From a virus, in IMG/VR virus record IMGVR_UViG_3300027515_000002, positions 1 through 42,422 of that record: a DNA stretch of 42,422 bases, one strand, 5' to 3'. Positions 21,827 to 33,516 of this stretch are shown here, piece by piece (within the stretch, counting starts at the first letter, position 1; every line of letters starts with the position of its first letter). Made by a program: the position numbers and the translations under genes. The notes under the pieces are model-generated. The model ran no database searches, was not told the DNA's origin, and worked only from the letters and a program-made list of their open reading frames with translations.

Positions 21827-21850
21827 TTACCTCCTGATTTCTCTGTCGCT

Positions 21851-22188
21851 ATATCGCATAGGGCAACCGGTTTACACTTTTGCCTCGGCTCGCACATCCA
21901 ACCTGGGTTTCACGATACAGATGGCTCGCACAATCGGGTTGGGTTTCACCGAGGGTGTGGCTCGCATCCGTTGCCTGGATTTCACGGGCAACATGGCTCG
22001 CACAAGCAATCTGGGTTTCACATACTACCTGGCTCGCACACTCGACCTGGATTTCACTCTGCTAATGGCTCGCACCACCTATATGGGTTTCACCAACCAC
22101 CTGGCTCGCACTACCTTGCTGGGTTTCACCGAGGTTGTGGCTCGCACATCCCACCCTAGGTTTCACCAAACCTGTAGCTATATCGCAG
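21851..22188 (-). repeat. TIGR-like array 2: 9 units of 36 bp with degenerate ends
   Basis: Same two 9-mers and same 36-base spacing as array 1. Plus-strand units start at 21851 (degenerate), 21887, 21923, 21959, 21995, 22031, 22067, 22103 and 22139 (last one has a 10-base spacer), with a terminal degenerate half at 22180. GCTATATCGCA occurs at both array ends (21848-21858 and 22177-22187). Spacers are unique and not shared with array 1 as far as I can compare. Less degenerate than array 1. It fills the gap between two paralogous minus-strand genes, and the upstream gene's stop codon is inside the terminal repeat. Confidence 0.9.
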
Positions 22189-22396
22189 CCAATACATAAT
22201 CCGAATACATGGTGTCTGATTCCAGGGGAATGACTTCCACGCTCCCACCGTTGTATTTCCGCACCCAGTCAAGGCCGTCTTGTATCTGGCCTGGTGTCAC
22301 GTCAACGATGCATTCAACCCTAACATCGCCTAATTGACCTACTGCGTATAGAAACTCCAGCACGTTGATCGCGTGTCCTCTAACCCGGTATTGCAT
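22178..22396 (-). CDS. Array-associated protein, short paralogue
   Basis: 72 residues, ATG at 22396 with GGAGGTGAGG upstream. RVRGHAINVLEFLYAVGQLG, VRVECIVDVTPGQIQDGLDW and SVEVIPLESD line up with the N-terminal domain of the protein at 21239-21826. The alternating strand-helix-strand pattern suggests a small alpha/beta fold. It ends at TAG 22178-22180, within the first repeat of array 2. No known family recognised. Confidence 0.7.
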   Translation of the reverse strand: MQYRVRGHAINVLEFLYAVGQLGDVRVECIVDVTPGQIQDGLDWVRKYNGGSVEVIPLESDTMYSDYVLAAI

Positions 22397-27930: not shown

Positions 27931-28228
27931 TATCCTCCATAGTCATCTCAGCCAGGCGCTCATGGTGTAGCGCCGCAGCAATGCGGTCTACACCGTAGGC
28001 CAGGACGGTGGCCAGACCGGCAGCAGCGCTGATGGCTGCAATGCCCAGAACGGTCTGCCAGTCACCATCCAAGCCGCGCCAAACTGTCACGCCGATGAGA
28101 ATGCTGCCCACGCCGTAGGCATAGGCAGCCAGGCGAGGAAGCGGCTTACCCAATAGCAAATGCCAGGGAAACCAGTGACCGAGGCTGATGATGAGTGCAG
28201 TGATAATCAGAGAGAAAGTAAAATTCAT
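27911..28228 (-). CDS. Three-helix membrane protein
   Basis: 105 residues. Hydrophobic helices at about 4-18 (FSLIITALIISLGHWF), 33-52 (AAYAYGVGSILIGVTVW) and 60-82 (VLGIAAISAAAGLATVLAYG), with an acidic C-terminus. A TAGGAGGTTTAGGAGC leader gives a ribosome site. Early membrane proteins of this sort may act in exclusion or replication anchoring; no evidence here. Confidence 0.6.
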   Translation of the reverse strand: MNFTFSLIITALIISLGHWFPWHLLLGKPLPRLAAYAYGVGSILIGVTVWRGLDGDWQTVLGIAAISAAAGLATVLAYGVDRIAAALHHERLAEMTMEDNDASTK

Positions 28229-28369
28229 CGCTCCTAAACCTCCTATTGGAGTTATAATGAAAGTAAGGAGATGGATATGGATATGGCACGCATACGTGCA
28301 CCTCCTATGCTGGCGGCAGTCGTCGTCACACGCTCACCGCCAAGCAAAAAGAGGCCATCCGCCTCGCCG
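28229..28369. other. Short gap with no clear gene
   Basis: The minus strand carries two tiny overlapping frames after the ribbon-helix-helix gene (15 and about 25 codons; the second has AGGAGG before an internal ATG and encodes a 13-codon Ile/Ser/Leu peptide). The plus strand has a TATAAT and GGAG but no convincing gene. Leader peptides are possible; I make no firm call. Confidence 0.25.
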
Positions 28370-28588
28370 TCATTTGGAGGGAGTGCGCTCTCCTTCCGAC
28401 ACGAACGAGGCAGACGGCCTCAATACATCGTGCGTCCTGGCCCACCAGCGCAGCGCATACCGCACCGCACCGGATAGGCCGGACGTGCCTGTCCTCTTCA
28501 TTATTTCCATGGCGATGAGCAAATCATCACCATGGAGATAGAGATTTTTTCTTTGTCCTTGTCCCTTCATCCTACCATGAATGTTCAT
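28370..28588 (-). CDS. Ribbon-helix-helix-like protein, first early gene
   Basis: 72 residues from ATG at 28588, or 66 from ATG at 28570. RKNLYLHGDDLLIAMEIMKR, then GLSGAVRYALRWWAR fits a ribbon-helix-helix fold (strand, two helices). The early promoter -10 ends at 28602, so the leader before 28588 would be only about seven bases. As first gene after the repressor-controlled promoter it may be a Cro-like regulator; inferred. Confidence 0.65.
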   Translation of the reverse strand: MNIHGRMKGQGQRKNLYLHGDDLLIAMEIMKRTGTSGLSGAVRYALRWWARTHDVLRPSASFVSEGERTPSK

Positions 28589-28601
28589 AATTCTTTAAGC
28601 C

Positions 28602-28630
28602 ATTATATCACACTTTTGTGTCATTGTCAA
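28602..28630 (-). promoter_or_regulatory. Early promoter (near-consensus) with internal operator
   Basis: Minus strand: TTGACA (28630-28625), exactly 17 bases, TATAAT (28607-28602). The spacer contains ACAC-TTTT-GTGT. This promoter drives the early operon and is the probable main target of the adjacent repressor. Confidence 0.88.
28610..28621. promoter_or_regulatory. Candidate repressor operator 1 (ACAC-N4-GTGT)
   Basis: ACAC-TTTT-GTGT lies between the -35 and -10 of the early promoter. The same 12-base dyad with a different centre occurs at 28661-28672, 51 bases away. Confidence 0.6.
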
Positions 28631-28660
28631 GAGGTTTCAGCGCCATTTTTGGAAATTGTT

Positions 28661-28672
28661 ACACGATTGTGT
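28661..28672. promoter_or_regulatory. Candidate repressor operator 2 (ACAC-N4-GTGT)
   Basis: ACAC-GATT-GTGT, extended to TTACAC...GTGTAA over 28659-28678. It sits between the early promoter and the repressor promoter, where it could control both. Confidence 0.55.
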
Positions 28673-28709
28673 GTGTAAAGATTTCAGCAATATTCTTGGG
28701 GATACAGGA

Positions 28710-28715
28710 TATAAT
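28710..28715 (+). promoter_or_regulatory. Repressor promoter -10 (leaderless start)
   Basis: TATAAT at 28710-28715 lies six bases before ATG 28722, so transcription would begin at or next to the A of the start codon. No good -35 is seen, which fits a promoter that needs activation, as lambda PRM does. Confidence 0.5.
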
Positions 28716-28721
28716 GATGCT

Positions 28722-29093
28722 ATGTTAGAATGGGAACGAGTACAGCGGTTTTGGGAATGGTTCGATAGCGCACGTGGTCAACTCTCAATCAGAGAAATTG
28801 AAAAACGTGCCTATGTACCGCGCGGTCGCATCGGTAATCCCTATAGCGATAGGCGCAAGCCGTCACCCGATGTATGCGCTGCTATTGCCAGAGGACTGGG
28901 ATTGCCGCTGGAGACCGTGCTGAAAGAGGCAGGCTATTTGGAGGAGGTTGACAATGAGGCGGATGTTGAAATCCGTCAGATTGTCGGATACCTCAGGGCG
29001 CTTTCACCCGCGGAACGCACGATGGTGCGTCGCTTCGCCGAGTTTTGCTACCGATCTGCTCTCGAAGCCATGTCGAAAACCCCGGAGGAGTAA
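28722..29093 (+). CDS. Cro/CI-type repressor without S24 peptidase domain
   Basis: 123 residues from ATG at 28722; an upstream ATG at 28656 in frame would lie across the operator and lacks a ribosome site. A helix-turn-helix of the Xre type spans residues about 18-65 (GQLSIREIEKRAYVPRGRI, then PSPDVCAAIARGLGLPLETVLKEAGYL). The C-terminal 55 residues are helical (SPAERTMVRRFAEFCYRSALEAM). There is no LexA/CI S24 domain, so RecA-driven self-cleavage is not available. Divergent from the early promoter and next to the integrase, the expected place of a prophage repressor. Confidence 0.85.
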   Translation: MLEWERVQRFWEWFDSARGQLSIREIEKRAYVPRGRIGNPYSDRRKPSPDVCAAIARGLGLPLETVLKEAGYLEEVDNEADVEIRQIVGYLRALSPAERTMVRRFAEFCYRSALEAMSKTPEE

Positions 29094-29193
29094 GTCCCAG
29101 CTTCATCCGCAGCCAAATATATAGACCGCACAGTAGAGGGGAATAGTCAATTAAAGCGGGTTTGGGTGGTTTATCGGAGAAACCTGTAAACAT
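28993..29193 (-). CDS. SOS-controlled small protein antisense to repressor, antirepressor candidate
   Basis: 66 residues, ATG at 29193 with GGAGGGAG five bases upstream. A consensus promoter overlapped by a LexA-type box lies about 40 bases further up. The frame (MFTGFSDKPPKPALIDYSP, then LYIWLRMKLGLTPPGFSTW, basic tail) overlaps the last 101 bases of the repressor gene on the opposite strand. Family not recognised. The layout suggests damage-induced expression that counteracts the repressor, by protein or by antisense transcription; it could also be a non-coding transcript. Confidence 0.6.
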   Translation of the reverse strand: MFTGFSDKPPKPALIDYSPLLCGLYIWLRMKLGLTPPGFSTWLREQIGSKTRRSDAPSCVPRVKAP

Positions 29194-29220
29194 TGCTCCC
29201 TCCAGTGATAAAAAGGCAGC

Positions 29221-29265
29221 TTAGAACACTAGTTCTAATTTAGCAAATTTTTCCTCGTTTGTCAA
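29221..29265 (-). promoter_or_regulatory. Promoter with LexA-type SOS box
   Basis: Minus strand TTGACA (29265-29260), 17 bases, TAAATT (29242-29237). The palindrome TTAGAAC-N4-GTTCTAA (29221-29238) covers the end of the -10 and the start site. Its core GAAC-N4-GTTC matches the LexA box of Gram-positive-type bacteria. Confidence 0.75.
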
Positions 29266-29320
29266 TAGGTAAATCGTACCGAATGGGATGCAGTTATGAG
29301 GGAAATTTTAGGTAATGCAC

Positions 29321-29507
29321 AGATAGCACAGCTGATTACGGCGGAGATAGCACGGCTCGCTCGCAAGAGCAGCTGTGCGCACTACGGCAGATTGTGAGAA
29401 GCGCACGGTTCACATCCGTGAGGTCAGAGGTTCGAACCCTCTCGCGCCCACTATACCCCGCACTCTAGTGCGCACGGCTTCCTCATCACTTCATCCGTGC
29501 TATCTCC
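29321..29507. repeat. Candidate integrase arm sites around attP
   Basis: GGAGATAGCACGG (29343-29355) is the exact reverse complement of 29495-29507. A further AGATAGCAC lies at 29321-29329. They flank the tRNA-derived core at similar distances (about 50 bases), like arm-type sites of lambda-like integrases. A second inverted pair, GTGCGCACTA near 29375 and TAGTGCGCAC near 29466, lies closer in. Confidence 0.65.
29404..29450 (+). other. attP core: 3' half of a tRNA-Val(CAC) gene
   Basis: CACGG/CCGTG anticodon stem (29404-29408 and 29416-29420) with loop TTCACAT (anticodon CAC at 29411-29413), variable bases AGGTC, T-arm AGAGG-TTCGAAC-CCTCT and acceptor end CGCGCCCA to 29450. The matching 5' acceptor strand and a D-arm are missing, so it is not a working tRNA. 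A tRNA 3' half just before a tyrosine integrase gene is the typical phage attachment core. Confidence 0.85.
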
Positions 29508-29552
29508 AGCACAAAAACATCCATTATGCATCACATACTGTAGAGCGCACGT

Positions 29553-30533
29553 ATGGGCATCCCCCTGTCCGCAGCTATCGAGGAGTTTCTCACTGTACGC
29601 CAGATCAACGGCTGCTCACCCTATACGCTGCGCAATTACCGCCTCGACCTGCAGCGTTTTGCACAGTTCGTCGGCCCAGATACGTTTGTCTCCACCATCA
29701 CCGTCGAACATGTTCGCAATTTCCTGGCCGCTCTGCAGACGACGCCATCCGAACCGTGTGGCATCGCTCCACGCCCACCGCGCCTGTTATCCCCGAAAAC
29801 AATACGTAACGTCCACACTACGCTGCGCTCGTTCTGGCGCTATCTGATCGAAGAGGGATACGTGAGGAGCAATATTATCGCATCCGTGCGCCCACCCCAG
29901 TCGCCTCAGCCGGCCATCCAGCCGCTCACACGCGATGAGGTGCTCGCCATCCTGCGCGCGATTGACCGTTCTGCACCGTATCGCAATCGTCCTGATGTCA
30001 GCAACGTTCGTCCTGCGCTGCTGCGCAACCGCGACCGCGCCATTATCCTCGTGTTGTTGGACACGGGGGTGCGTGCCGGGGAGTTGTGTGCGCTGCGGGT
30101 GGAGGATTACAACCCCGCCACAGGGGCAATCGTTGTGCGCGGCAAATCGCGCCTGCACTCAGGACGGGGGCGTCAACGTGTGGTTTATGCGGAACAGCCG
30201 ACACACCGTGCGCTGCGTGCCTATCTGGCGCTGCGCAACGCCCATGCCGACGAGCCGCTGTTTGCCACTCAGGAGGGCAAACCGCTCACGCGCCGCCATC
30301 TGGCGCTGCATCTGAAACGCATCGGCCAGCGTGCTGGCATCCCCAATCTGCATCCCCATCGGCTGCGCCATACCTATGCAATTGAGTATCTGCGCAATGG
30401 CGGTGATCCGTATACGCTGCAGCGCTTGCTCGGCCACAGCACGCTGGAGATGGTGCGCCGCTATTTGGCCATCAGCCAGGCTGACTGTGCTGCGGTACAT
30501 CGGCGCTGTTCACCGGTGGTGAATTGGCTATGA
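29553..30533 (+). CDS. int: Tyrosine recombinase (phage integrase)
   Basis: 326 residues. The N-terminal SAM-like core-binding domain (SAAIEEFLTVRQINGCSPYTL; TIRNVHTTLRSFWRYLIEEG) is followed by the catalytic domain: Arg in LDTGVRAGELCALR near 174, Lys in VVRGKSR, HxxR in HPHRLRHTYAIEYLR near 272, His in LLGHSTLEMVRRYL and nucleophile Tyr near 304. It integrates the phage at the host tRNA-Val gene through the attP core about 100 bases upstream. The C-terminus has a Cys/His/Arg tail. Confidence 0.95.
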   Translation: MGIPLSAAIEEFLTVRQINGCSPYTLRNYRLDLQRFAQFVGPDTFVSTITVEHVRNFLAALQTTPSEPCGIAPRPPRLLSPKTIRNVHTTLRSFWRYLIEEGYVRSNIIASVRPPQSPQPAIQPLTRDEVLAILRAIDRSAPYRNRPDVSNVRPALLRNRDRAIILVLLDTGVRAGELCALRVEDYNPATGAIVVRGKSRLHSGRGRQRVVYAEQPTHRALRAYLALRNAHADEPLFATQEGKPLTRRHLALHLKRIGQRAGIPNLHPHRLRHTYAIEYLRNGGDPYTLQRLLGHSTLEMVRRYLAISQADCAAVHRRCSPVVNWL

Positions 30534-30636: not shown

Positions 30637-30840
30637 ATGAAGAAGCATTTTAATATCCGGTTGAATCAAGAGGAATACCAAATTATTTGCCGCCTGGCGG
30701 ATGATTTGTTCGAGGGTAATCTCAGCCAGGCGATTCGTTTTGTAATCCGGCAGTATGCACGGAGTAAACTGGGACGCGAGCAGAACGACCATCCAACCGA
30801 GTACGAGACTGAAATCGTACCTCAAGAATCCCTCGTTTAG
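30637..30840 (+). CDS. Ribbon-helix-helix regulator
   Basis: 67 residues, ATG at 30637 with GGAGGGA upstream. KKHFNIRLNQEEYQIICRLA, then GNLSQAIRFVIRQYARS fits the ribbon-helix-helix fold (DNA-reading strand, two helices); the tail is acidic. It is directly under the promoter it may regulate, and the same operator occurs at the 17.75-kb promoter. Its 3' end overlaps the convergent gene 30722-30988 by 119 bases. Confidence 0.75.
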   Translation: MKKHFNIRLNQEEYQIICRLADDLFEGNLSQAIRFVIRQYARSKLGREQNDHPTEYETEIVPQESLV

Positions 30841-31851: not shown

Positions 31852-33516
31852 TTAACGGCTCGCTTCTTCAATCTCATACAGGCGCGGTGTGACTTCCTGT
31901 ATCAATTGTCGGTGCGCTTCTCGAATAAACTCGATCGTCTTCAGCGCCTCTTCGATTTTGCGCGTCGCTTCCTCCGACCACCAACGAGCAGCTGTAACCG
32001 TCTCAGCATTGATTGTTTTACCCAACTGCGGGATCGTCCCCCATAGGCGCAACCAGTGACGCACATAGGTAGATATGTAAACCTGCGCAGCATTGCTTTT
32101 TAGGTTCTGTGCTGCGGTGTTGCCACCATAATAAGCAGCCAATCCCCGCAACAGTTCACCGTTATTTGCCGCAATTGCACCTGCCAGGATGGATGTGCCG
32201 GTCTTGATGTTAGTGTCAGGGTCTAATAACTCCTGCTTTGTCGGTCGGTCGGCGAATTGGCTGCCCGCCTCCCTGGGCATGACCTGCATCAGTCCCACTG
32301 CTCCCACCGTACTGACGGCATTGGGATTACCAGCGCTCTCTATGGCGATAATTGTGCCGATAACCCGTGGGTCTATGTTGTATTGTTTGCCATATTTTTC
32401 GCACAGCTCACGCCAACGTGTAATTTCGACACTGCCCCAAATCTCCTGCGGCTGTGGCTGAGGAGTCGGCTGCGGCTGCGGTTGCGGTTGCGGCTGCACG
32501 GCAGGCCAGAGATGCGTGACCAACGGTACACCTGCAGGTTTATCCGGCTTCCAAGGCGGTTTGGCATATTTCGGTAGTGGCCACGGCTGTGGTGGATTAT
32601 GCTGATACAGGCCATTTCGCACTTTATAGGCATGTTCCAGCCATAGGCTGGTGAATTCAACAGGTCGTGTACAATATGTCGCCCAGCGATTGTCCTCAAA
32701 ATCGTAGGTGAATATCGTAGCACCGATGACGCGGCCGTCTGCCACCAGCTGTCCCTCATAGGCTACTAGCTGTGCGAAATAGGCTTGCGCTTTATCAGAC
32801 CGCCCCATGCCCTGCCAGCCATAATAGTCGCCTCCAGGAACGACGTGGCTATCAATACCGCATTCGGTAATAATGATCGGCACATTCCATGGACAGGCAC
32901 GGAAGCGACCGGCCCACCATCCCCAGTTTTCCTGCGGGCCGTTGACATACCAGTATTCATGTAGTCCCAGGAATCCTTTGTGCTTCCAGATCGCCTCGAT
33001 CGCCTCCACGAACGGCTTCCAGATCGGCGGTGAATCGGGCGGCTCTTGTGGTTGCCCGTTCCCAGGCCATCCTACACCGAGGTTTAGTGCCACGACGCGG
33101 ATTTGTGCCGCCGCTAGACGTTGTGCCAGGCGTGCATAATAGGCTGCGACCAGTTCGGGCGGCTCGTTGGCCCAGATCATTGGCTCATTGAGACCCTCAA
33201 CAGCCAATTTATCATCCCATAAACTGTTCTTGCTCAGGATGCGCCACCACTCATCGGCATGGCGGTCGGCTATCTCAAGTGCATGCTGGCGGTCGCGCAG
33301 ACCACGGCCACCCCATTTGAGATTCTCACTGATCTCGTAGTTGCGCAGCACGACGAGCAGCTGTGCTGCCTCCAATGCTACATCTGCACGTCTAGCCGTC
33401 TCACCAGAGAAGAATAGCTTGATGACCGGCGGGGCGAGTTCGCGAATGAATTTATCATCCTGCCCCCCAGCATGCATCGGCGCCCAGTGAGGGCATAACA
33501 GGGTATTTGTCACCAT
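31852..33516 (-). CDS. Two-domain cell-wall hydrolase: TIM-barrel glycosidase plus lytic transglycosylase
   Basis: 554 residues. Residues 1-310 look like a clan GH-A TIM-barrel glycosidase: VEGLNEPMIW near 107 supplies the acid/base Glu (N-E-P) and IIITECGID near 216 the nucleophile Glu. A Pro/Gln linker (repeats of PQ) spans about 345-365. Residues 370-500 are an SLT-type domain: catalytic Glu in IIAIESAGNPNAVS, then GAVGLMQVMP and RGLAAYYGGN. Expected role: endolysin or virion-associated lysin. No signal peptide seen. It follows a zinc-ribbon micro-gene. Confidence 0.85.
   Translation of the reverse strand: MVTNTLLCPHWAPMHAGGQDDKFIRELAPPVIKLFFSGETARRADVALEAAQLLVVLRNYEISENLKWGGRGLRDRQHALEIADRHADEWWRILSKNSLWDDKLAVEGLNEPMIWANEPPELVAAYYARLAQRLAAAQIRVVALNLGVGWPGNGQPQEPPDSPPIWKPFVEAIEAIWKHKGFLGLHEYWYVNGPQENWGWWAGRFRACPWNVPIIITECGIDSHVVPGGDYYGWQGMGRSDKAQAYFAQLVAYEGQLVADGRVIGATIFTYDFEDNRWATYCTRPVEFTSLWLEHAYKVRNGLYQHNPPQPWPLPKYAKPPWKPDKPAGVPLVTHLWPAVQPQPQPQPQPTPQPQPQEIWGSVEITRWRELCEKYGKQYNIDPRVIGTIIAIESAGNPNAVSTVGAVGLMQVMPREAGSQFADRPTKQELLDPDTNIKTGTSILAGAIAANNGELLRGLAAYYGGNTAAQNLKSNAAQVYISTYVRHWLRLWGTIPQLGKTINAETVTAARWWSEEATRKIEEALKTIEFIREAHRQLIQEVTPRLYEIEEASR

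Follow-up and report, generated by a model that had tools for sequence, protein, structure and literature searches.

A candidate LexA-switched micro-gene facing the 3' end of a non-cleavable phage repressor

Many phage repressors are without a self-cleavage domain, and to our knowledge it is mostly unknown how prophages held by such repressors sense DNA damage. This question is posed in compact form by the window, a 42,422-nucleotide stretch of viral DNA (positions 1-42,422 of IMG/VR record IMGVR_UViG_3300027515_000002), in which a short repressor gene meets, tail to tail, a small open reading frame lying behind an apparent SOS promoter. By what route might such a prophage leave the lysogenic state when the DNA of its host is damaged?

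The repressor gene (28722..29093, plus strand, with its ATG at 28722 and its stop at 29093) encodes 123 residues, with an XRE/HTH_31-like helix-turn-helix (HTH) domain at the N terminus and a two-helix element at the C terminus. The protein weakly matches HTH_31/HTH_3 in Pfam and matches a PHROG transcriptional repressor family (E=2e-4), and its AlphaFold2 model is all-helical (pLDDT 92.7), the HTH domain being followed by helices 79-92 and 96-118. Pfam returned the HTH only and no S24 peptidase domain, which together with the model bears out the view of an earlier note on this DNA that the repressor is not of the classical RecA-cleaved CI type. An M78 peptidase gene, as in ImmR-ImmA systems, was likewise absent among the ten ORFs scanned around the repressor with Pfam and PHROG. 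Since a TATAAT (28710..28715, plus strand, read from the sequence) stands just 6 nt before the repressor ATG, the repressor mRNA is probably leaderless.

Divergent from the repressor is a probable early lytic promoter on the minus strand, TTGACA-N17-TATAAT (28602..28630), which matches the consensus at 12/12 positions. The first early gene (28370..28588, minus strand) encodes 72 residues that appear ribbon-helix-helix-like by eye and have no match in Pfam or PHROG; a weak terminator (28365-28351) comes after it. The repeat ACACN4GTGT occurs in two copies in the whole window, both by this promoter: ACACTTTTGTGT at 28610..28621, within the promoter spacer, and ACACGATTGTGT at 28661..28672. We regard both copies as probable operators of the repressor.

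Opposite the 3' end of the repressor gene, and antisense to it, lies the promoter we call P_SOS (29237..29265, minus strand). It consists of TTGACA (29265-29260), a 17-nt spacer and TAAATT (29242-29237), a 10/12 match with a TG directly before the -10; 3 promoters matching this well were found in the window, compared with 2.7 expected. A palindrome, the LexA-box candidate TTAGAACACTAGTTCTAA (29221..29238), covers the final 2 bases of the -10 as well as the expected transcription start near 29230. It has 0 mismatches to the 14 specified bases of TTAGAACN4GTTCTAA, and the window has no second site that comes within 3 mismatches, where chance would provide 0.54 sites per window at that threshold. 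Against a matrix trained on lexA boxes it scores 9.6, with 14-24 for the lexA boxes themselves, and ranks fourth in the window. This low score arises because its N4, ACTA, leaves one half-site off-consensus (GAACT) and so breaks the pattern GAAC-R-N-N-Y-GTTC on that side, a deviation shared by several other SOS-type promoters such as TTAGAACTTATGTTCTAA before a recA-like gene (gene names by eye). The palindrome was also considered as the repressor's own operator, a reading that is disfavoured because the ACACN4GTGT repeats flank the early promoter instead; if those are the repressor's operators, GAACN4GTTC would be the site of a different protein. No Rfam family matched within 28000-30000.

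The open reading frame behind the box, ORF66 (28993..29193, minus strand), starts 27 nt after it and would encode a candidate micro-antirepressor of 66 residues. A Shine-Dalgarno (SD) sequence, GGAGGG (29198..29203, minus strand, read from the sequence), stands 4 nt before its ATG, and its last part overlaps the repressor gene by 101 bp (28993-29093). The promoter and the palindrome covering it had been described in the earlier note and are confirmed here to the base, and the 66-codon gene with a strong ribosome site and a 101-base overlap, also described there, is present in full. The codon statistic of ORF66 is -0.10 overall, at about the 75th percentile of spurious ORFs, and 0.01 in the half outside the repressor overlap, at the bottom of the range of real genes. 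These weak statistics, the early promoter with its ACACN4GTGT repeats and the recurrence of the arrangement in other phages (below) go beyond what the earlier note had described. A single-sequence AlphaFold2 model, of low overall confidence, places helices at 17-32 and 39-49. Helix 17-32 resembles a 35-residue frame in one related locus, L157, at a level reached in 49 of 60,000 shuffles, uncorrected for the frames tried, and in that locus a different frame has the better SD; similarly, L365 has FATWLR, at p 0.015 and again uncorrected for the frames tried, in the ORF that corresponds to ORF66, where the motif reads FSTWLR. Given the frames tried, both likenesses are weak. ORF66 has no match in PHROG, Pfam or NCBIfam, which thus gave no sequence relation to a described antirepressor family such as those of Gifsy or Tum, and among the viral contigs searched there were no close relatives of ORF66, the repressor or the integrase. 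Taken together, the coding evidence for ORF66 is moderate, despite its exact geometric fit.

The host of the virus can be approached through its attachment site. The attP core, 53 bp on the plus strand (29400..29452), is identical to the 3' half of a tRNA-Val(CAC) in an Anaerolineae MAG: a 34-nt part of it gave one exact match in a GTDB-species collection, from which the identity continues over all 53 bp. At 46% identity, the best homologue found for the repressor likewise comes from an Anaerolineae genome, and annotated phages yielded no relative of the repressor. These matches support a host within the Chloroflexota (Anaerolineae). To the right of the attP core is a tyrosine integrase gene (29553..30533, plus strand) with Pfam and PHROG matches. 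Beyond the integrase, at 30637-30840 on the plus strand, there is also a ribbon-helix-helix-like ORF of 67 residues with good codon statistics and no Pfam or PHROG match.

In the Anaerolineae lexA is nearly universal (145 of 150 genomes), and GAACN4GTTC was found at most 160 bp upstream of lexA at 27 of 30 loci, compared with about 0.003 expected per locus; these boxes almost always read GAAC-R-N-N-Y-GTTC. Across 396 Anaerolineae genomes there are 20 sites of the form TATAAT-N5-AGAACN4GTTCT, which precede lexA, recA-like, imuB-like and other genes (names by eye), and about 75 more with a spacing of N6-8, whereas the reversed-pattern control returned 0 in both searches. Given these sites in dozens of genomes, the empty control and the SOS-type genes downstream, we take LexA-controlled promoters of the build TATAAT-N5-8-AGAACN4GTTCT to be real in the host group. 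With an Anaerolineae host, the box upstream of its lexA genes, and box-promoters for which the control gives zero matches, P_SOS is very probably a LexA-controlled promoter.

The convergent geometry recurs well beyond this window. Among 42 loci with homologues of the repressor, 4 (L155, L157, L164 and L166) have a box 0-150 bp past the repressor stop; since just 2 boxes lie elsewhere in the 116 kb of these loci, 0.27 would be expected in that zone. In L157, which is the same phage as L203/L280 and IMG/VR contig 3300035312_000516, and in L166, a leftward promoter whose -10 is directly followed by the box reads into the repressor gene in antisense, as in the window. The box of L164 sits on the repressor stop codon, and a small ORF is not evident there. 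In L155 (1389-1440, locus coordinates) the box is on the repressor stop as well and is followed by an SD-led ORF of 82 residues in the repressor's own direction and then a tRNA; this box may serve a rightward SOS gene rather than an antisense gene. Loci L004, L015 and L077 were set aside, as their box past the repressor stands by a rightward gene and there is no antisense mini-gene. That gene is the integrase in L004 and L015, two related phages with A1-type repressors. There (L004:1450-1487, L015:4333-4370) an exact TTAGAACN4GTTCTAA, past a tRNA-like attP, precedes the integrase ATG by about 20-35 bp, so that LexA possibly controls the integrase of these phages.

A scan of IMG/VR that used the promoter-plus-box pattern alone gave at least 154 distinct sites, and in at least 21 of them the promoter points at the 3' end of a gene for a short HTH repressor without S24, 86-143 bp away (127 bp in the window). 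The repressors of these modules are mostly 111-158 residues long, and the phages are mostly AT-rich and Firmicutes-like. Eight further convergent cases among the matches listed are scattered over -16 to 1,402 bp, and the mirror geometry, with the repressor 3' end behind the promoter, does not occur among the matches listed for these sites (at least 154). A good box is absent in L311, whose repressor is a relative of that of L277, one of the convergent modules. The Streptococcus relatives phi7917 and Javan215 were rejected, their repressors being full-length (about 256-260 residues) and larger than those of the modules described here. With about twenty other phages in the same arrangement, it is probably a widespread and hitherto undescribed means of sensing DNA damage for prophages whose repressor does not cut itself.

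In most of these modules an SD-led ORF of 30-49 residues starts 15-40 nt past the box (27 nt in the window) and ends at or slightly inside the repressor 3' end. A family that we call alpha comprises 8-9 phages: L389 (MKEEYIIRIVELLNQCNDISLLDLILRLLQKSR), L238, L251, L246, L355, L376 and L442, plus L308, which was found via its repressor and not its box, and L102, found via its box without the promoter requirement. Family beta consists of L453 (MNDNKAQLIELIETLNEKQILFILTFLKRILGKD), L277 and perhaps L345, and family gamma of L386 and L418. Pairs of alpha and of beta peptides differ at few second and many third codon positions; for L238 and L251 the differences at positions 1/2/3 number 10/2/17. Such a pattern is a coding signature and points to purifying selection in one family (8-9 phages). 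None of the relatives' peptides has a significant match in Pfam, NCBIfam or PHROG, and two alpha peptides compared with annotated phages had no match there.

Across 8 modules, identity between peptides tracks identity over the last 45 residues of the repressors (rho 0.64, Mantel p 0.007); for the HTH part of the repressors the corresponding value is -0.15. For example, L389 and L355 are 26% identical in the N-terminal part of the repressor (few aligned columns), 56% at its C-terminus and 70% in the peptide, and for L389 and L386 these figures are 51%, 25% and 26%. This marks the peptide and the repressor C-terminus as a putative single cassette; as the two are adjacent, their co-inheritance could also be mere linkage. 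The idea that each peptide mimics the C-terminus of its own repressor in sequence found no support, as own-pair scores were mostly no better than those of shuffles and had no class specificity.

We consider it reasonably likely that the locus is an SOS-controlled convergent micro-antirepressor module in which ORF66 acts on the C-terminal helices of the repressor. In the lysogen, host LexA on 29221-29238 would shut P_SOS, and the non-cleavable repressor (28722-29093) would hold the leftward early promoter at 28630. Upon DNA damage, RecA-stimulated self-cleavage of LexA would open P_SOS, a transcript would start near 29230, and its strong SD would direct translation of ORF66 into a small helical protein. 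This protein would most likely bind the C-terminal helical part of the repressor, breaking dimers or DNA binding, and the resulting inactivation of the repressor would release the early promoter. The same transcript would run antisense through the repressor gene and could, by read-through, reach the first early gene (28370-28588); it may thus reinforce the effect by transcriptional interference or as an antisense RNA. While the sequence anatomy, the LexA-type promoters of the host group, the recurring geometry and the codon-level selection on the relatives' peptides are shown by the sequences, we infer that LexA binds, that P_SOS is transcribed, and that ORF66 is translated and binds the repressor. 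That an antirepressor or antisense RNA under LexA control would bring about SOS induction was already the proposal of the earlier note, and the host, the survey of LexA boxes and the roughly 20 phages with this geometry lend support to it. Of its two branches, the protein is favoured over antisense RNA alone because the Firmicutes-type relatives have conserved peptides under selection.

It is nevertheless conceivable, if unlikely, that the effector is the RNA or the act of transcription itself, by way of polymerase collision, antisense RNA and/or read-through that bypasses the early promoter, and that ORF66 is non-functional. P_SOS does point straight through the repressor gene, and a leftward terminator-like site between it and the early promoter is absent in the window and in L166 and weak in L157. 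The weak codon statistics of ORF66 and the L164 box without an evident small ORF are in keeping with this, and lambda OOP offers a precedent for an antisense RNA with an associated LexA box (PMC5869508). However, most relatives have an SD-led short ORF right behind the box, with codon-level selection in one family, and silencing new synthesis alone would act no faster than the standing repressor decays. The precedent is also a limited one, in that the effect of OOP on CII is little or none after SOS induction of lambda (PMC2327240).

We think it improbable that the box is instead the terminator hairpin of the repressor mRNA, or the site of some other protein, next to a promoter likeness that arose by chance. 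The palindrome does fold as a hairpin with T-rich sequence after it, and its off-consensus half-site, its low score with the lexA-trained matrix and the fact that promoter matches of this quality are not rare would all suit such an explanation. But at -7.5 kcal/mol and z -1.65, with only 2 G-C pairs among the 7 palindrome pairs, it is a weak hairpin, and for this reason the terminator was rejected; the likely operators of the repressor are the ACACN4GTGT repeats near the early promoter, and box, promoter and repressor keep their geometry at a fixed distance in more than 20 phages. Small SOS proteins often have other targets and the box of L004/L015 stands 35 bp upstream of the integrase instead, yet it seems more improbable still that a real LexA-controlled promoter drives an ORF66 aimed elsewhere (a host cell-division block, SOS modulation or the integrase), given that convergent linkage to short repressors is fixed in unrelated phages and that peptide type tracks the repressor C-terminus.

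The micro-antirepressor that we favour has partial counterparts among known systems. In Bacillus subtilis the SinI-SinR pair is one in which a helical micro-protein disrupts an HTH repressor via its C-terminal helices; it belongs neither to a phage nor to the SOS response, and no sequence relation to it is shown, the SinR DNA-binding domain being one of the weak fold matches. In CTXphi, host LexA directly controls a phage promoter. The same holds for GIL01 and its gp7-LexA (PMC4551915). In these two phages LexA itself is the phage repressor, whereas here LexA would control a gene opposing a separate repressor. Established LexA-controlled antirepressors are GfoA/GftA of the Gifsy phages (Salmonella), Tum of coliphage 186 and AntC of N15 (PMC3121763). 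Gifsy resembles the module proposed here in combining a short repressor without self-cleavage with a small antirepressor directly under LexA, and differs in the place of its antirepressor genes, which are found near dinI and not within the immunity region (PMC3121763). Here the gene is convergent with the repressor and overlaps its 3' end, and the peptides are unrelated to known families.

Lambda OOP agrees with the layout predicted here in that a promoter associated with a LexA box yields RNA opposite the 3' end of a gene for lysogeny (PMC5869508), but its target is cII and not the repressor, it is non-coding, and it has a minor part in SOS induction (PMC2327240). The TF-smORF modules of vibriophages and others (Silpe 2023) share with the modules proposed here tiny, homologue-less proteins and a non-proteolytic inactivation of the repressor, but work independently of SOS, under the control of a phage transcription factor (PMC10432266). 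No account of the convergent arrangement turned up in the literature searched, which included few subscription papers. LexA-controlled antirepressors and SOS-independent, repressor-inactivating smORFs are both known; the convergent LexA-switched arrangement appears to be new and is probably widespread.

It is tempting to go further and propose a general induction device in phages of at least two phyla, in which a LexA-switched micro-gene of 30-70 codons would stand tail to tail with the gene of a short non-cleavable repressor, the distance being fixed at about 90-140 bp. Unrelated helical peptides would have filled this slot time and again, each fitted to the C-terminal domain of its repressor and exchanged together with it. 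We would give this generalization an even chance of being correct. A short repressor gene with a LexA-box promoter that lies 90-140 bp past its 3' end and points into it would then predict SOS inducibility, a signature that could be applied to uncultured gut and hot-spring phages. The same signature would expose micro-proteins missed by gene callers and supply many natural pairs of repressor and peptide.

Some other features were noted alongside these modules. A near-identical element, ACATTAGGTATAATAGGATAGAACTTAAGTTCT, recurs in many contigs (L241, L252, L254, L256, L270, L284, L288, L301 and others), about 305 bp past the point where a gene encoding a large protein (up to about 735 residues) ends, and is probably not a LexA site. 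At 21850-22190 of the window, between leftward genes, about eight units form an array that repeats every 36 bp; they contain the conserved stretches CTGGGTTTCAC... and GGCTCGCAC... with variable stretches between them. Finally, a gene of the window at 31852-33516 encodes a protein of 554 residues whose C-terminal half contains a lytic transglycosylase domain and whose N-terminal half, judged by eye, is glycoside hydrolase-like.
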